Source: a virus
Length of the DNA stretch: 20,708 nucleotides
Virus record (IMG/VR): IMGVR_UViG_3300031565_000474
Coordinates: 1 to 20,708 of that record
Reading direction: 5' to 3' (one strand)
The notes below the pieces were generated by a model that was not told the origin of the DNA, searched no databases, and worked only from the letters and a program-made list of their open reading frames with translations. Position numbers and translations under genes: made by a program. Positions within the stretch are counted from its first letter, which is position 1. Each line of letters opens with the position of its first letter. Positions 5,739 to 17,733 of this stretch are shown piece by piece.

Positions 5739-8513
5739 TTATTCTACCTCGAAATCTAGTGTAGCACCTAATAGATAAAAAGGCAACGGGTCAATTTGTC
5801 TTAAGAACACTCTACCGTTGCTGTTCCATTCTGATAATATTGTTATACGTTCCACGCCTGTAAATAGACTTGTTGGTTCTCCCCACTTTTCAAACTTTCT
5901 TTGCGCCCATTCAACTAAACGATTAGGGTTAGGACCTATCAGTAACCCCCGTGAATCTTTAAACCGCAGCGCAACACCGGATACTTTTTTATTTTTACCT
6001 TGTATCGTTCTTTGTTGCGTCTCTAAATCTAAAGTTTCTACATCAGATATATACGATAACCCTGTATGTATCCTGCTAAATTTACGGCCAAAGGTAACAG
6101 TACCTTCGGAAGACACCACGAGGTCGCGAATTACGTTACCGTCACCCAACGCCACCACATCTTTACCTGCTAAATGTCGTAAACCGCTTACAGTATCCAC
6201 CGCTTTGCGTACTTGCCCGCCCCCTAAATACGCTGCAAAGTTTGTGCTGTCAACATATTCTCCTTCTAATCGCAAAGTGATCGTGTTTGTGGTAGCATCG
6301 TCAACAACATAGCGGAAATTATTAAGGTGGTTAGGGTTTATCACGTTACCCTTAGCATCTATAGTAGTTTCCCACCTAGCATCGTGAATATCTACTTCGT
6401 CACCATCCGCGAAGGGATGGCCGGTTATCGTAAGCACCGCTGGGTTGGCGTTAGTAATACTTGCTATGGTGTAGGGGTCATCAAGTGATAGCCCGCTATC
6501 TACAAAAAAAGCGTCGCGTATATCTTCAAATGTCCTGTTATCTGAACGCTCGATATAGTATACTGTTCTGCCGCCAACGGAGCGTTTAACGACAAAGAAT
6601 AAAGATTCCAAAGTATCAGCAACATTTGCTCTTGATGCTGCCACGCTGTAATACTCGCCTTCCGTGTCCCATGTCGTCCACCCTATTACTTGCTGCGCCT
6701 CGTTGAGTGTAAGTAGTATTGCGCTACCGTCGTCCCTTACAGAAGCGATTATCGGGTCAACATTCTGTCTCAAATAGGTCCAATCTGTAAGTTTTTTACC
6801 AGATAGTAAATGGGGGGACCATAGCGACAATTCGCCAGATTCGTAACCAGCGGTATTAAAAGCAAATTGCAAGCTCCTTACCGCTGTACCTGTATAGAAT
6901 ATAGCTGTAGAGCCAACAACGTGAGGAGGAAGTTGTGCGCTTCCCCAAGTAGTCTGAGGCCGCTGCTCTATACCAGTTAGCGAAAAACCCCCTTGCGAAG
7001 TTACACGCCATTCGGCACCGGTAGTAAAAACCAACAAATCGTTAAGAGATACGAAATGTCTTATCTCGTTTACCTCTAAAGAAGGTAATGTAGTACTAAA
7101 GGAATCTTCGCTTCTAACAGGAGAAGTCACACTAAAATTCCTAAATGCGCCTAACCTAGAGTAAAATTTTGTATCGGGTTTGTTATTAGAGCCTCCAAGT
7201 ACCCTCCTTTGTTGGTGGAAACCCACCGCCCCTGGGTAGTCGTCTTCGTCCCTAAAAGGGTTAAAAGGGAATGGTGTAGATATTTGTGCATTAGCTTGCA
7301 AATTAGAGTCTTTAAAAGAGGTGTTTTCTGTTTCCCCTATAAAAGCAAAAGCCCCGTTTGTATTACGGTAAACAGCGTAACGGATAGTGTTTGGTACCGC
7401 TGTGAAAGTTATTGTGTTATCAAAGGTGGTGCTAGAATTACTCAGCCGTACGAAAGCCCTCTTAAATGTTCCTCCTGAAACGTAAGCTCCGTAATCGGTA
7501 CCATCTTCTCTTTGTAACGACACCGTGGTTGTTGTTAAACGTATGACCTTAAAACGCCTGCCGTTTAGCTCCGTCATCCCTACAATATTCTCTATAAGGA
7601 TTTCATCACCTGTGGCCAAATCGGCGTCAGCAGATAAGGTTAATACTACCGGGTTAGCCTGTGTAGCGGCGGTTATAGTCTGTGAAGCATCTGTAGTTAG
7701 GGCTGTTGAACTCTCTTCTTTGGTATCTTGTTCGATAGCCGTAACTGTGTATTTAACAACAGTACTTCCATGTGTTCCTGCACTGGCGGCCAATGTAGTC
7801 GGCGCTGAGTGGGTAGGTACAAACGCTGTCGTTGTCAATGTCCAGTTGGCTAGTGCTAATCGCGTTAAGTCCTTAGTAGGATAGCTAGGGTGCGCTAACG
7901 TCATAACATCTGCTGTTTGGCTTATCTTTATATTAAATAGATCGGCCTGTAAATACGGGGATGCTATCTCATAGATCTTGGCTGCGGTACCGCCGGAGGT
8001 ATACGCCCCGTAGGTAGTGCTATCTACGTCTCCACCGGTGTAAACGTCTTGTAGTGAAAAAGTATCGGCATCTAATACCGTTATTTTAAATCTACGCCCG
8101 TTAAGCTGAATCATGCCCCCTATGTTTTCTAACGCTACCTCGTCGTTGGAAGAATACCCATGTGTAGCAATAGTTAAAACTGTTGGGTCAGCTTGCGTGG
8201 CCGCTGTTATATTCTTTGCTGTCTCTGTTATGTGGCCTTCGTTGCGTAAGAAACGGATATACCTATCCCCTAATTCTATCTGGTGCGTGTCTATTGTTTT
8301 AAACTGGAACGCTATAAGCCTAGGTGGTTTAGTAAAGTCTTTTACGGGTGCTATAAAGTGTGTACCACCCCGGTTATACACCCCCCCGTATTGGCTTACG
8401 CTTACATTACGCGCTTTTCGCAACCCTGTGTAATAGTCTTCTTGATCTATCCTCCCGTACAGCTCTGGTGCTATTTCGCCTTTAGAAAAAGAAGGTTGTG
8501 TTATTTCTGGCAT
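5739..8513 (-). CDS. tail tube protein B / nozzle-like protein with three FCCH-like insertions
   Basis: A 924-residue protein. The N-terminus (TQPSFSKGEIAPELYGRID, then a Y..GL..ARN..V...GGV.NR.GT.F pattern) is the signature of podovirus tail nozzle proteins equivalent to T7 gp12 (tail tubular protein B) and their relatives in BPP-1/epsilon15-type phages. Three internal modules resemble the ubiquitin-activating-enzyme E1 FCCH-type beta fold often found in phage tail proteins: residues about 102-183, 280-352 and 683-770. Each has an (A/T)xxxNP-VLT start, a GDE(V/I) turn and, in the first two, NGRRFK followed by YGAYxSGGT. The central part (residues 410-620) contains DDYPGAVGFHQQRRV and W.T-rich blades typical of the family core. 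It follows the tail tube A gene with a 3-base gap and a good GGAAGG ribosome binding site. Confidence 0.88.
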   Translation of the reverse strand: MPEITQPSFSKGEIAPELYGRIDQEDYYTGLRKARNVSVSQYGGVYNRGGTHFIAPVKDFTKPPRLIAFQFKTIDTHQIELGDRYIRFLRNEGHITETAKNITAATQADPTVLTIATHGYSSNDEVALENIGGMIQLNGRRFKITVLDADTFSLQDVYTGGDVDSTTYGAYTSGGTAAKIYEIASPYLQADLFNIKISQTADVMTLAHPSYPTKDLTRLALANWTLTTTAFVPTHSAPTTLAASAGTHGSTVVKYTVTAIEQDTKEESSTALTTDASQTITAATQANPVVLTLSADADLATGDEILIENIVGMTELNGRRFKVIRLTTTTVSLQREDGTDYGAYVSGGTFKRAFVRLSNSSTTFDNTITFTAVPNTIRYAVYRNTNGAFAFIGETENTSFKDSNLQANAQISTPFPFNPFRDEDDYPGAVGFHQQRRVLGGSNNKPDTKFYSRLGAFRNFSVTSPVRSEDSFSTTLPSLEVNEIRHFVSLNDLLVFTTGAEWRVTSQGGFSLTGIEQRPQTTWGSAQLPPHVVGSTAIFYTGTAVRSLQFAFNTAGYESGELSLWSPHLLSGKKLTDWTYLRQNVDPIIASVRDDGSAILLTLNEAQQVIGWTTWDTEGEYYSVAASRANVADTLESLFFVVKRSVGGRTVYYIERSDNRTFEDIRDAFFVDSGLSLDDPYTIASITNANPAVLTITGHPFADGDEVDIHDARWETTIDAKGNVINPNHLNNFRYVVDDATTNTITLRLEGEYVDSTNFAAYLGGGQVRKAVDTVSGLRHLAGKDVVALGDGNVIRDLVVSSEGTVTFGRKFSRIHTGLSYISDVETLDLETQQRTIQGKNKKVSGVALRFKDSRGLLIGPNPNRLVEWAQRKFEKWGEPTSLFTGVERITILSEWNSNGRVFLRQIDPLPFYLLGATLDFEVE

Positions 8514-12954: not shown

Positions 12955-13299
12955 CTAATCTTCTAAGTAATTGTCTAAGATATTATAAGACTTAGATTCT
13001 TTTTCTAGCCCTTCCAACCTGTGTTTGATTGTCCTGGCTCTTTTTAAATCTTCATCCTGCATCATTATGTAACAATTATCCTTGATTGTCAATACCCTTT
13101 GTATTATTTGACTTCCTAATTGCCTTTTACCGTTGTGAAACACCACATTGTCCTGCGGTACGACATACATACCGGACATTTCTATTATCTCAAAGATAAC
13201 CTGTCTACCGTTTTCGGTAGCCAATACGTCTTGCCAAGCTAGCTCTTTTGACTTTTCTATTTCGGCCACAAGCTTATCATACTGCGCTTCGTTTGTCAT
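12955..13299 (-). CDS. Bbp19-like small phage protein
   Basis: A 114-residue protein between portal and scaffold genes. The segment WQDVLATENGRQVIFEIIEM, followed by a G.YVVP stretch and FHNGKRQLGSQIIQ, matches the pattern of Bbp19-type proteins of BPP-1 and relatives (VL.T..GR.VL..L...G......F......A...G.R..G..I...L). Their function is not established. The C-terminus is charged and helical (LKRARTIKHRLEGLEKESKS). Its ATG overlaps the stop region of the portal gene by 4 bases (translational coupling), and a GGAGG lies 7 bases upstream. The gene order Bbp19-like, scaffold, capsid, cement is the same as in BPP-1. Confidence 0.75.
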   Translation of the reverse strand: MTNEAQYDKLVAEIEKSKELAWQDVLATENGRQVIFEIIEMSGMYVVPQDNVVFHNGKRQLGSQIIQRVLTIKDNCYIMMQDEDLKRARTIKHRLEGLEKESKSYNILDNYLED

Positions 13300-15005
13300 T
13301 CCGCCGCCTCCGCTCTACCCATTGATTCTACTGCTTGCGCGCCCATTTGGGCGGCATTAGCGTTTTCTACCTCTGCTTGCCTATCTGCTTGCGCCTGCGC
13401 GGCTTCCGCTTGCTGCTGCATAATCTGCTCAACTTCTTCGTTAGAGCGTACTGCGCTGGGCTGTACGCCAGTCATGCGTGCGTAAGAATCCATAGAAGAG
13501 ATTGCGTCTATCTTTAACAACGCCTCTGGGTTAGTCTGCGCCAAACCTTGCCCGAACATAATGTACCTTTCTAGTGACCCTATTTCGGAGAATTGCTGCG
13601 CCAAGGCCAAAGCAGATATAAATTTAATATTAAGAGGCATACCTTCCATCTCCTCCGGCATAGGCGGTAGTATTCCCGCTCTTTCTGCCTGCCTAAAGGT
13701 GCGTTCTATTAGTGATGCTTGAAACTCTCTGTGTATCCTGCCGAGGGGTGGGCCTAACTGCATAAGAGCTTCTTGGTCGCGCATAGATAATTCCATCTGG
13801 TTGACGGGTTGAATACCCTTGCGCTGTGTTATAGCCATAAATAAGTTTACAAAGAAAGCTTCGTTGATACGTTGCTCCACTCTGTCCATCTCTATGCTCA
13901 TTTCTTGGAAAGGTACATTTACTTGGTACGCGCTTTGTACTCTTTCCCCTGAACCGTCATTAGCAATATATCCGCTTGGTATGTTCTGTTTACTTACAGC
14001 CGCTTGTTTTAATTGTGGTGGGCCTGTAAGCACCGGCGTTACCATCTTATCAAGCCCTTGCGCCTTCCTACGTTCCATTATCTGTAGGCCTTTAGTATCA
14101 CCCAGTGCTACCATCGCCGGGCAGTCGGTGCCGTAGGTATCTTCATTACTTAAATCCCAGCGTATGACGTGCACCGGGAATTCCTCGAAACCGGACTTCT
14201 CTAAGAAATTATTTTTGAAATCATCGGGATACCTGCTGGCGTCACTACCGGCGGCTCCTTGCTCGTAGTATACTGTTCTAAAAGGTTTGTTAGCCGATTC
14301 TAGTTTTTCAGGGTCGTGGTCCGGGTTCGGTTCTATGAACTGCACTACACGGAATCTGGCTTCGTAGTTCGCTGTGTCGTAAGCACTCTTAACCGCTATC
14401 GATACATTATCCATGCCAAAGCGCCCGATTAGTTGCTCTGCTGTACGGGTGGTTCGCGTAGCAAAGGTGTTGACGTTAAATCGGTCATCCTGACCTATAA
14501 AGTAGCTACCTGCCGTGTGCGTGTAGAACCTCGTTACGTCGTTGAAATCATCCAACTGTGACATGGCTGAGGTGCCGTATAATAGTAATTCTTTAAACAT
14601 GACCGGTGCCATGTTATATAAATTGCTTGAAAAGAATATTTGTCGTATGAGGTTCTCGACCTGATACAGCCAGTCCCTCACCGGTGCAAAGCCCATCATG
14701 TCTGGATCCATTGTCTCGAACTTGAACCAAGGTCTGGACGCCTCCATGGTGCCCGTAAATATTCCTGCGGTAGCCACCCTTAGTGCTTGTGTAGCCCTCG
14801 AGTTTATTATGTTGCCGTATTTGCGATTGCCGTTGTTGGGTAGCTCGTCCAGGAATCTCCCGCTGTGTGGGCTAATAAAAGCGGATAACTGCTGCCAGTG
14901 GTGTTCAAAAGATTCGCGTTCCCTAGCCATAGACGCTAGCCTAGTGTTGTAGTAGTTCATGCTGGATTTGTTCCCAAGGAACGGTTCACTCTTAATGTCT
15001 ACCAT
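13296..15005 (-). CDS. portal (head-to-tail connector) protein, T7 gp8-type
   Basis: A 569-residue portal protein of the podovirus head-to-tail connector family. Diagnostic stretches are YYNTRLASMARERESFEHHW (R...L...R..FE..W), then FISPHSGRFLDE, then NIINSRATQALRVATAGIFT followed by RPWFKF (the family's S.A..AL..LAAG....T....WF.L), and LYNMAPVMFKELLLYGTSAM (the Y......KE...GT). The C-terminal third (from about residue 380) carries FVNLFMAIT..G and a Gln/Ala-rich tail (EEVEQIMQQQAEAAQAQADR) predicted as coiled coil. Length is close to that of T7 gp8 (536). It forms the dodecameric ring through which DNA is packaged and ejected. AGGGG about 8 bases upstream serves as ribosome binding site. Confidence 0.93.
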   Translation of the reverse strand: MVDIKSEPFLGNKSSMNYYNTRLASMARERESFEHHWQQLSAFISPHSGRFLDELPNNGNRKYGNIINSRATQALRVATAGIFTGTMEASRPWFKFETMDPDMMGFAPVRDWLYQVENLIRQIFFSSNLYNMAPVMFKELLLYGTSAMSQLDDFNDVTRFYTHTAGSYFIGQDDRFNVNTFATRTTRTAEQLIGRFGMDNVSIAVKSAYDTANYEARFRVVQFIEPNPDHDPEKLESANKPFRTVYYEQGAAGSDASRYPDDFKNNFLEKSGFEEFPVHVIRWDLSNEDTYGTDCPAMVALGDTKGLQIMERRKAQGLDKMVTPVLTGPPQLKQAAVSKQNIPSGYIANDGSGERVQSAYQVNVPFQEMSIEMDRVEQRINEAFFVNLFMAITQRKGIQPVNQMELSMRDQEALMQLGPPLGRIHREFQASLIERTFRQAERAGILPPMPEEMEGMPLNIKFISALALAQQFSEIGSLERYIMFGQGLAQTNPEALLKIDAISSMDSYARMTGVQPSAVRSNEEVEQIMQQQAEAAQAQADRQAEVENANAAQMGAQAVESMGRAEAAE

Positions 15006-15008
15006 CTT

Positions 15009-15509
15009 CTACGCCCCTAACAATCTTTTTCTGGCTGTTACTTGCCCTGCCTCGCCACTGGTGCCTAGACCCCTAGACGTAGTAAATATTAAACTGCTGC
15101 GCCCCTGCGCGGCTGTCTCTAATGCTGTCCTAGAAGCCATCTGCTGGCTTGCTAAGGCTTGCTGTGTTCCGTCGCGCTGCGGTAAGTCTGTAGGTTGTGC
15201 AGTACCCTCCTGCGGAGGTACCGCTGTCGTGGACAAAGACGGCATACGGGGGGTACCCTGTAAAAGTGAGGCTCCTACGCCTATTAACGATGCTGTGGTA
15301 GCTAAACCTTTTAGCGTAGTCTTGCCTATAAGACCGGTTGCTGCGCCTCCTATTGTATTTGCTGTTGCTGCTACGCCCGCTAGTGCACCTCCTACGCCTG
15401 TACCTACCCCGCCTATGAGACCTGCTGCCCCTAGTGCTGCGCCACCTGTCACCACCGCTGCGGCTGCTAATGCGGCTATAGGTAACACTCTTCTAAAAAA
15501 CCTTCTACT
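15009..15509 (-). CDS. small Ala/Gly-rich virion-region protein; proposed AGT start
   Basis: The reading frame from a GTG at 15488 gives 159 residues, but that GTG lacks a well-spaced ribosome binding site. An excellent one (GGAGGTGA, 15513-15520) sits upstream and is correctly spaced for an in-frame AGT at 15509, seven codons earlier. Starting there gives 166 residues and adds RRFFRR, so the protein begins with a basic patch followed by a long Ala/Gly/Val hydrophobic stretch (residues about 8-60), a sensible membrane-inserting or signal-like start. The middle is Pro/Gln/Thr rich. The C-terminal end (SSLIFTTSRGLGTSGEAGQV then RKRLLGA) resembles the LLT..GL......KTLLG ending of small podovirus virion proteins near the portal gene (T7 gp7.3-like), as I recall. 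An in-frame TGA two codons before AGT rules out a more distant start. Confidence 0.7.
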   Translation of the reverse strand, partial: SRRFFRRVLPIAALAAAAVVTGGAALGAAGLIGGVGTGVGGALAGVAATANTIGGAATGLIGKTTLKGLATTASLIGVGASLLQGTPRMPSLSTTAVPPQEGTAQPTDLPQRDGTQQALASQQMASRTALETAAQGRSSLIFTTSRGLGTSGEAGQVTARKRLLGA

Positions 15510-15512
15510 CGG

Positions 15513-15520
15513 TCACCTCC
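15513..15520 (-). promoter_or_regulatory. near-perfect Shine-Dalgarno serving an AGT codon
   Basis: GGAGGTGA on the minus strand matches eight bases of the 16S rRNA 3'-end complement, the strongest such site I found in the window. Three bases (CCG) separate it from AGT at 15507-15509, giving 6 bases between GGAGG and that codon, which is standard start spacing. No ATG, GTG, TTG, CTG or ATT lies within useful distance in the frame; the first conventional start is the GTG 24 bases beyond the site. This is what decides the unusual start proposed for the adjoining gene. Confidence 0.8.
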
Positions 15521-15530
15521 CTCTGGTAAG

Positions 15531-15607
15531 TGGTTGCGGGGGTAGGACTTGCACCTACAATCCCTTGGTGAGTAACCAAGTGAGTTTACTATTTTCTCCA
15601 CCCCGCG
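15531..15607 (-). tRNA. initiator-type tRNA with ACU anticodon
   Basis: A 77-nt cloverleaf with encoded CCA begins at the base after the terminase large subunit stop codon. The acceptor arm has C1xA72 unpaired followed by G2:C71, C3:G70 and four more pairs (CGCGGGG / CCCCGC), and the D stem has A11:U24. These are the marks of bacterial initiator tRNA; the 5' CGCGGGGTGGAG and 3' CCCCCGCAACCA match E. coli tRNA-fMet. The anticodon stem is CTTGG/CCAAG with loop TTACTCA, so the anticodon is ACU (15571-15573), which reads AGU, not AUG. The T arm is GTAGG/CCTAC with loop TGCAAGT. The variable loop is five bases, so it is not a serine-type tRNA. Odd points: U55 is G, G19 is U, position 37 is C, and the 29:41 pair is U:A instead of the initiator's G:C. 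It is either a repurposed initiator or a decaying copy of one. Confidence 0.85.
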
Positions 15608-17239
15608 TTAATTCAATCCTATCGCCTCGTTAGCTGCGTCAAGCGGATCATAGTCGTGTGCCATGGCGAGCTTGTTACTGTAGTCCTCGTGGCTGCTCTC
15701 CGCTGTTCTGGAGTAGCTAACATCCCGTATAAAGGTTAGCGCTAAGGCATCTGCTTCATCCGGTGATCCACCTATCCTTGTTTTAAACATGTCTTTAGAT
15801 TCAAGGACTATCTGTCCCTTCATATTATAACCAAATTCCCTTTGTGTCAACTGGTCATATAGCCTAGTGCCTAATTGTGTGTGTCTGGCCGGTAGGACGA
15901 TGTCCGGTATTGCGTCCCTTAGCTTACCCATAAGCTCGTCACATACAAGCCGGTACATCTTCGGATTGGCTGCTGTTCTACCGGAGTTTATATCATTGAC
16001 GTTGGCAAGCCCCGCCTTGCGCAAGAAATCCACCACAGGGCCACCCATGCCTGTTCCGTCTACGTTTATCATGGCCACTTTACGCCCCACCCTCTCGAAC
16101 ATTCTGACCATGGCTACCACCTCGTCTACCAACAGGTCTGCGGATGCCCCGTACAGCATCTTAGGCGCGAACGTTCGGCAGTCATAGCCGACCCTCGGGT
16201 ATATCACCGATGCGTCATTACCTGAACGTGCAACGTCTACCCCTATAATAATAGGCTCATGGCGCAACTCGTGCGCCTCTGGTGCCTTGCGTTCCATCGC
16301 GGCAGCTACTTCCATAGAATTGATGAACTGTAGGCTCGAGGCGTCAGGGAATAACCCCCTGTAGCGCACTTTCACCCAGTCTGATTCCTCGCCGCCGTAC
16401 GCTTCTATGTTGGCTTCAATAGTCTCTTTATTCGGTAGGTAGCACTCCCTAGAATCTATCGAGCGCATACTATACCTGTAAGCGTGCTTGCCTACGCAGT
16501 TCTCAAAAAACATACCGGTGTTGCGTGTGCCGTTACCGAAGTCAAATATCATCGGCTCACCTGAACCTAGACCACCTTCGCGTACCTCGTAGAATTTATC
16601 AGGCACGCCGGATGCTTCGTCAAATATGTAAAACGATGTGGCCATAGGGGCGTGCTGCCCGGCAAACGCTTCTGACTTCTCCGGGCGGCAAGTCTTAGCT
16701 GCTACGCTCCATCTGTCCTTAAGCTCGCTGGCGTGGCACAGCCTCATATTGCCTTGGGTATTAGAGTATGTAAACCAGTCCCGTGTCAGGGACATGTTAT
16801 GCCACTTACCTAACTCCGCCCATGTCTTGGAACGTAGTTGCTCGTCTGTGTTGGCTGTTACTGATCCCATCGAATATGGCCGTGTGTCCATAACAAACTT
16901 TATCAGCCAAGCCGTAAGTGTTGATTTGCCGGTGCCGTGTCCTGTCACTGTGGAAAACCGTAGTGGTTTCACCGGTTTACTGCCATCGAAGGCGTTCTGC
17001 CTTATCTGCTTACCGAGGTCGTCTAAGAACTCACACTGCCACTTATCAGGTCCGTACTTAGTATCAAACCTACCCTTATACTCCTCCGGTAGCGGTACCA
17101 TCTGTATCGAGGGTTCGCTGTCCCAAGGGAACATAGCCATAACGTACTCAAGCGGTTTGTCCCGTAGATAGCTCAGGAACTCTGCTAAGGCTACGTCGGC
17201 TTGGTTCTTAGCGTTCACGGGGTTTGTCTGCGCTGTCAT
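15608..17239 (-). CDS. terL: terminase large subunit
   Basis: A 543-residue DNA-packaging motor. Walker A is GHGTGKST at residues 100-107, followed by the coupling region (SVTANTDEQLRSKTWAELGK). Walker B is the hydrophobic run ending in FDEAS (Asp207, catalytic Glu208). The C-terminal RNase H-like nuclease starts at IIIGVDVARSGNDASVIYPR (first catalytic Asp, about residue 335), continues with MINVDGTGMGG and ends with DEADALALTF (about 494-503), giving the three acidic positions of the headful nuclease. It pumps DNA into the procapsid through the portal and cuts concatemers. Its ATG overlaps the small-subunit stop by four bases (ATGA). Its own stop codon abuts the tRNA with no spacer. Confidence 0.95.
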   Translation of the reverse strand: MTAQTNPVNAKNQADVALAEFLSYLRDKPLEYVMAMFPWDSEPSIQMVPLPEEYKGRFDTKYGPDKWQCEFLDDLGKQIRQNAFDGSKPVKPLRFSTVTGHGTGKSTLTAWLIKFVMDTRPYSMGSVTANTDEQLRSKTWAELGKWHNMSLTRDWFTYSNTQGNMRLCHASELKDRWSVAAKTCRPEKSEAFAGQHAPMATSFYIFDEASGVPDKFYEVREGGLGSGEPMIFDFGNGTRNTGMFFENCVGKHAYRYSMRSIDSRECYLPNKETIEANIEAYGGEESDWVKVRYRGLFPDASSLQFINSMEVAAAMERKAPEAHELRHEPIIIGVDVARSGNDASVIYPRVGYDCRTFAPKMLYGASADLLVDEVVAMVRMFERVGRKVAMINVDGTGMGGPVVDFLRKAGLANVNDINSGRTAANPKMYRLVCDELMGKLRDAIPDIVLPARHTQLGTRLYDQLTQREFGYNMKGQIVLESKDMFKTRIGGSPDEADALALTFIRDVSYSRTAESSHEDYSNKLAMAHDYDPLDAANEAIGLN

Positions 17240-17733
17240 TGCGTGTACTCGCCGTTGATTGTCTTAATCGGGTTCTGATCATGCGCTCCTAGCCTTATCC
17301 GGTTACGCCCCTGCTGTATCTGCTCTATTATGATGTTCACGCTGGCCGATGAGTTCCCCTTCTCCGCGTCTGTTATTATGCCGTGGAGCTTGGCCTGCCC
17401 CATCACCGCTTGTAATGCCGCCGTAAACTTGCCGTCGCGCATAGCCTCGTCGTATATCTTTTCTAGCTTGAGAGTTTGTGTCGTGACCGTTACCCCTTTA
17501 GTCACCGGGTCTGTGTTCTCGTCTACCTGTGGTGTTAAGTTTCGCGGTTCCCCTCCGCGCTGTAGCTGGCTTATCATGGACTTTATGTAAGGGTTAGTCA
17601 TGAGCCTTGCCACGCCCTTGAGAGCGTTTTCTTTAGTGCCTATACACAGCTTAAAGGCTTCGGTTGGTGAAAGGCCTTCCTTAACCACCTTAACACAATA
17701 ATCTATTTCGTTTTTTTCTAATTTGTCCACCAT
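17236..17733 (-). CDS. terS: terminase small subunit
   Basis: A 165-residue protein. The N-terminus (CVKVVKEGLSPTEAFKLCIG, then NALKGVARLMTNPYIKSMIS) is a helix-turn-helix of the sort found in terminase small subunits, where A....G and the N..V...I....P....I helices bind the packaging start site. The middle (LKLEKIYDEAMRDGKFTAAL) is the oligomerisation helix pair also typical of the family. It is the first gene of the leftward virion operon and overlaps terL by four bases. No ribosome binding site precedes the ATG; in-frame TAA occurs three codons upstream, so the start cannot move far. A good promoter ends eight bases before ATG, so the message may have almost no leader. Confidence 0.85.
   Translation of the reverse strand: MVDKLEKNEIDYCVKVVKEGLSPTEAFKLCIGTKENALKGVARLMTNPYIKSMISQLQRGGEPRNLTPQVDENTDPVTKGVTVTTQTLKLEKIYDEAMRDGKFTAALQAVMGQAKLHGIITDAEKGNSSASVNIIIEQIQQGRNRIRLGAHDQNPIKTINGEYTQ

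Follow-up and report, generated by a model that had tools for sequence, protein, structure and literature searches.

Which initiator begins translation of a gene that stands directly behind a phage tRNA and has no conventional start codon at its ribosome-binding site? The question is raised by a complete IMG/VR virus record of 20,708 bases (IMGVR_UViG_3300031565_000474; hereafter the window), in which a tRNA with the anticodon ACU lies on the minus strand between the terminase and a small protein gene. It is very probable that this tRNA is a phage-encoded initiator with ACU in place of CAU and that translation of the virion-region gene next to it begins at the cognate codon AGU. A preliminary description of the sequence had proposed that the phage uses its own initiator to start the adjacent gene at the cognate codon, and the proposal is now supported by independent loci and by covariation between anticodon and start codon in inoviruses.

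The beginning of the small protein gene reads GGAGG TGA CCG AGT AGA AGG TTT TTT AGA AGA GTG on the minus strand (15520-15486). The Shine-Dalgarno (SD) sequence GGAGGTGA (15513-15520) ends 3 nt before an in-frame AGT (15507-15509), and its GGAGG core ends 6 nt before this Watson-Crick cognate of the ACU anticodon. A duplex scan of ~41,000 positions on both strands placed the lowest anti-SD energy at proper spacing on AGT 15509 (−12.7 kcal/mol), bearing out the ideally spaced site described earlier, and among the strong SD sites that head open reading frames all but this one serve a canonical start (ATG 13299, ATG 10673 and GTG 1407). The in-frame TGA two codons upstream of AGT (15513-15515), likewise confirmed, excludes an earlier start, and no ATG, GTG or TTG occurs between it and GTG 15486-15488, the first conventional in-frame start.

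Initiation at this GTG by the host initiator, with the SD–AGT match and the ACU tRNA coincidental, is improbable. The GTG is in frame and conventional, and with two or three acceptable slots a codon would match by accident in a few percent of cases; the codon–anticodon match at the window taken alone is only about a 1-in-20 to 1-in-30 coincidence. However, the SD at GTG 15488 is weak and mis-spaced, as had been stated, and the best SD position of the window falls on AGT. The protein of a relative, L152, begins MCSSGVKKAAKVVLPAVGAAVG, resembling (S)RRFFRRVLPIAALAAAA of the window protein in placing basic residues ahead of a hydrophobic run; this likeness, a weak argument given the low complexity, suggests that the residues upstream of GTG 15488, which include the RRFFRR stretch noted earlier, belong to the protein. 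The codon–anticodon match is also seen again in nine other loci. It is these related loci that lend significance to the match at the window, and the earlier impression that only one such gene is visible gives way to a recurrent system.

The tRNA itself (CGCGGGGTGGAGAAAATAGTAAACTCACTTGGTTACTCACCAAGGGATTGTAGGTGCAAGTCCTACCCCCGCAACCA; 15531-15607, minus strand; Rfam tRNA 46.3 bits) begins with the first base after the terminase stop codon and ends in an encoded CCA 21 nt before the AGU codon. Its acceptor stem with C1xA72, its G10-A11-G12 stretch, its A11:U24 pair and its 3′ end are also those of E. coli tRNA-fMet; the preliminary description had not spelled out the initiator character of the acceptor stem, C1xA72 and A11:U24. 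As in bacterial initiators, the 1-72 Watson-Crick pair is absent and A11:U24 is present in the D stem; an open 1-72 pair is the formylation determinant of bacterial initiator tRNA. The anticodon is ACU (loop TTACTCA) and not the CAU of initiators. Arginine is a possible amino acid for it, given C35 and U36 and the identity elements of arginyl-tRNA synthetase.

An ordinary elongator or translation booster unconnected with initiation, such as a tRNA-Ser for AGU, is a very unlikely identity for this molecule. ARAGORN labels it Ser(ACU), and many phages carry elongator tRNAs, but the tRNA combines the C1xA72 mismatch with an initiator-type acceptor stem and D-stem start, and it lacks the long class II variable arm of tRNA-Ser. 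Ordinary tRNA-Ser identity is impossible because the tRNA is 77 nt long with a variable loop of 5 nt. In addition, the open 1-72 pair is common to all of the Gln-, Glu- and Thr-type inovirus tRNAs described below.

A third explanation starts from the closest terminase relative, L150, which carries an initiator-type tRNA-Met(CAU) (2274-2349) upstream of its small terminase gene; initiator tRNAs therefore occur in the phage group of the window. The window tRNA could be a decaying or nuclease-resistant copy of tRNA-fMet, a decoy against anticodon nucleases such as VapC that is not used at AGU. VapC nucleases cut tRNA-fMet, phages generally avoid encoding the target tRNA, and it has been proposed that an altered anticodon loop lets phage tRNAs escape host tRNases (PMC10264068). 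We give this explanation hardly any credence: the stems are intact except for one D-stem pair, the changes relative to L150 lie on both sides, an ACU anticodon cannot serve AUG, and a decoy leaves the matched start codon unexplained.

Evidence for a dedicated initiator at the window comes from inoviruses with the same arrangement. Locus L254 from an Oscillibacter assembly looks like an integrated inovirus, with a replication protein that matches inovirus replication proteins. Its tRNA has a UUC anticodon and C1xA72 (locus 6815-7104), and 27 nt behind it AAAGGAGGGAGCGTC is followed by GAA GCT ACT ACC, which opens a coat-like protein of 61 codons, the first eight of which include no ATG, GTG or TTG. 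The homologue L301, without this tRNA, instead reads GGGAGAATGAGC ATG GAG ACT TCC. Further loci were found by following inovirus matches from L254. L286 (MT135298; 3794 onward) has a UUG tRNA with C1xA72 and AAGGGGTGATGTTTT before a CAA start, with an in-frame TGA three codons before it and a product bearing a clean signal peptide (QRKFIALLLACIFMLGLSVPASA). A CGU tRNA and AAGGAGGAAATAATCC precede ACG in L297 (PQ006133; 4870-5193), and a UGU tRNA and AAAGGAGGAGATACG precede ACA in L299 (PQ006144; 4868-5193). The pairs are UGU with ACA in L317 (1380-1713), AGU with ACT in L318 (1386-1713), CUG with CAG in both L324 (1339-1662) and L325 (1282-1590), and CUC with GAG in the prophage locus L327 (reverse complement, 763 onward). 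These tRNAs, with Glu, Thr or Gln anticodons and open 1-72 pairs, closely precede a gene for a coat or secreted protein; most of the coat genes are unannotated in GenBank, and two coat types match PHROG 2186, a virion structural protein. The arrangement of the window recurs in several inovirus loci, with codons CAA, CAG, GAA, GAG, ACA, ACG and ACU before coat or other secreted or virion genes. The tRNA and the start codon share a strand in all ten matching loci and are 21-48 nt apart, tRNA first; the pair is therefore inherited and probably transcribed together.

Codon and anticodon covary among L317, L318 and L297, which can be aligned over the tRNA, leader and coat gene. The anticodon changes from UGU to AGU to CGU while the start codon changes in step from ACA to ACT to ACG, as a pairing requirement between codon and anticodon predicts, and the codons after the start are conserved (ACT ACT CCC). 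L317 and L318 are 90% identical over the aligned stretch and their tRNAs differ only within the anticodon arm. We also examined 12 loci with an adjacent open-1-72, non-CAU tRNA, seeking the cognate among the SD-best codons. The cognate codon occupied the SD-selected position in 10 of 12, where random codons predict 0.41, and none of 200,000 anticodon permutations reached 10 matches; with the window left out, 9 of 11 loci match (1 of 200,000 permutations). These statistics include sister inoviruses that are partly dependent, though their codon–anticodon pairs differ. The window and nine other loci have an SD-placed cognate codon with no canonical start at that SD. The coat family comprises 15 records in the phage collection, and all six distinct tRNA-carrying viruses match, whereas the five tRNA-less members sampled (L319-L323) have GTG or ATG after the SD. 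Likewise, ATG or GTG follows the SD in the tRNA-less L301, L330, L346 and L347, and other genes of the same genomes have ATG behind an SD.

Comparison of the tRNA bodies indicates how such initiators may have arisen. A72 faces C, A or G at position 1 in every partner-bearing tRNA. A11:U24 is found in the window, L254 and L327, and the elongator-like U11 in L286, L297, L299, L317, L318, L324 and L325; the U11 in the D stem of these seven partner-bearing tRNAs suggests more than one origin of initiator identity, elongator bodies included, mainly through opening of the 1-72 pair. The full GGG/CCC at 29-31:39-41 occurs, among partner-bearing loci, only in L286. Separately, the initiator-type tRNAs of L131, L132, L134, L142 and the window (15531-15607) share a T loop with TGC for TTC and a D loop that lacks GG, a hint that the 18-55 contact underwent a coupled change.

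Only slightly less probable than the reading of the window tRNA is a wider one, in which phages of at least two unrelated groups (a tailed podovirus-like phage and inoviruses) evolved dedicated non-AUG initiator tRNAs more than once, from both initiator and elongator bodies. Each would be paired with a start codon private to one virion gene, whose initiation would then be orthogonal to that of the host and whose protein may begin with a residue other than methionine. The Gln, Glu and Thr types of anticodon in the inoviruses make it probable that those coats begin with Gln, Glu or Thr.

Scans for additional non-CAU initiators returned few candidates. An initiator skeleton with altered base 35 or 36 gave no second ACU tRNA among 2.9 million viral contigs of IMG/VR, and gave two GAC tRNAs, which would read GUC/GUU, on phage contigs of ~56.8 kb (L070, 6290-6365, minus strand; L148, 4811-4885, plus strand); a scan of IMG/VR for the ACU loop likewise yielded no further ACU initiator. 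The first initiator-skeleton matches had a CAU loop by motif in 112 of 121 cases, and non-CAU matches that proved to be CAU with a shifted loop were removed. Three candidates were rejected: L143 and L145 keep only the 3′ part of a tRNA next to an integrase-like gene and probably represent attachment sites, and L144 is a tRNA-Gln relative with an anticodon loop of 8 nt (CTACTGAA). Across 85,000 bacterial and archaeal genomes, 57 sites fitted a skeleton with any base except C at position 34, of which only L254 and L255 were tRNAs, an earlier genome scan under a stricter pattern having given zero; L255 (UAU, Arsenophonus) looks like a decayed or misread fMet and was set aside. A Zot-based survey of Clostridia genomes recovered only two tRNA-bearing prophage loci.

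Several observations weigh against a dedicated initiator at the window and in its counterparts. In the window tRNA, U29:A41 replaces the first of the three G-C pairs of the anticodon stem, followed by G30:C40 and G31:C39, an arrangement shared with the tRNA-Met(CAU) of L150; C37 is unusual, and the fourth D-stem pair is A13xA22. The AGT/ACU pair is itself a single case. Among the other loci, L285 (971-1044) and its relative L144 (1578-1650) have an open-1-72 tRNA-Gln (CUG) followed by a gene with TTG or GTG at the SD, and a search of both for a CAG-start gene gave nothing convincing. The L326 prophage (reverse complement, 976-1051) has an open-1-72 CGU tRNA with only a near-cognate coat start, ACT or GCG, possibly analogous to the reading of GUG or AUU by CAU. 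No partner gene is evident for the GAC tRNAs of L070 and L148, where the next genes start with ATG. The exceptions L285, L144 and L326 may be relics, cases of near-cognate use, or tRNAs with partners elsewhere.

The genes around the window tRNA are those of a tailed phage. On the minus strand the order is small terminase, large terminase (15608-17239, its stop codon abutting the tRNA 5′ end), tRNA, small protein (15009-15509, 166 amino acids counted from AGT), portal or head-tail adaptor (13296-15005; PHROG 332), a PHROG 458 match (protease), major head protein (PHROG 212) and tail proteins. No SD precedes the ATG of the small terminase gene (17236-17733; duplex +1.0 kcal/mol), in contrast to the other genes. 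The terminase matches IMG/VR contigs and Vibrio, Salmonella and Pseudomonas phages at 39-55% identity, and searches for close relatives of the portal and the small protein found none. In many terminase relatives the gene after the large terminase encodes a conserved C-terminal motif (GRxSTILT...KKTLLG type), and a profile of 24 such C-termini matches the window protein with an E value of 3e-5, compared with 0.95 for the best of 500 shuffles; a typical relative matches PHROG 831, of unknown function. Most of these genes start with ATG a few bases past the large terminase stop and none has a tRNA there, the outcome of the homologue comparison that had been suggested for cases in which the tRNA is absent.

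The tRNA structure, SD, codon match, covariation and canonical starts in tRNA-less homologues are read directly from sequence, and from them we infer charging, formylation, initiation and benefit. The tRNA would be excised from the same transcript as the small protein gene, charged by a host synthetase and formylated by virtue of the open 1-72 pair; IF2 would then bring it to the P site, where it would pair with an AGU codon set in place by the very strong SD. Host fMet-tRNA would read AGU poorly, and expression of the gene would go through the initiator that the phage supplies, in effect a private channel for initiation that stays in cis with its target gene. Each step is permitted by the known biochemistry of initiator mutants and IF3: E. 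coli initiators mutated to GAC or CUA are charged with Val or Gln, formylated, and start at GUC or UAG (PMC2268962), IF3 needs Watson-Crick pairing at the first two codon bases and follows pairing strength and not sequence (PMC10158994), and the G-C pairs of the anticodon stem tune initiation stringency (PMC11497404). Such a channel could reserve an initiator for an abundant or late protein, keep the gene silent until the tRNA is made, confer independence from host control of tRNA-fMet and possibly immunity to nucleases that cut it, or allow choice of the first residue.

To our knowledge, the CAU-type initiator is regarded as nearly universal and altered initiators are laboratory constructs, and we know of no cell that uses a private start codon of this kind. 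If the proposal is correct, natural virus-borne orthogonal start codons represent a new change of the genetic code, of initiation and not elongation, and a new control of virion protein synthesis; they would account for the absence of coat genes from the annotation of some inoviruses and would supply ready-made orthogonal initiators for protein engineering. The minimal needs of an initiator tRNA also become testable, because several of these tRNAs have elongator-like D stems. Literature searches, with most subscription journals and preprints outside their coverage, found engineered systems and no natural phage-encoded non-AUG initiator, and priority is not certain.

Four known systems resemble the one proposed here. 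The engineered E. coli initiator mutants (U35A36 reading UAG and G34C36 reading GUC; PMC2268962) likewise place an altered anticodon on an initiator body and start at the complementary non-AUG codon, and the GAC tRNAs of L070 and L148 are a natural counterpart of the latter. The mutants are formylated, and the synthetase matching the new anticodon charges them; the phage tRNAs would behave alike. The mutants, however, are laboratory constructs acting on reporters, whereas the phage tRNAs are natural, each stands beside the one gene that it would serve, other codons are used, and several in inoviruses are built on non-initiator bodies. Phage tRNA-fMet(CAU) shares the initiator skeleton, the open 1-72 pair and a place in phage genomes, but it serves all AUG genes, which the non-CAU tRNAs cannot. 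Host-read non-canonical starts, such as GTC in Streptomyces sigR (PMC5472188) and AUU in infC, are also non-AUG, but it is the host initiator that reads them, within limits set by IF3, whereas AGU, CAA, GAA and ACN here each have their own cognate tRNA. Finally, phage suppressor tRNAs and stop-codon reassignment also use a phage tRNA to alter decoding of late or structural genes, but they act in elongation at stop codons, whereas here initiation would be reassigned and the elongation code left standard.
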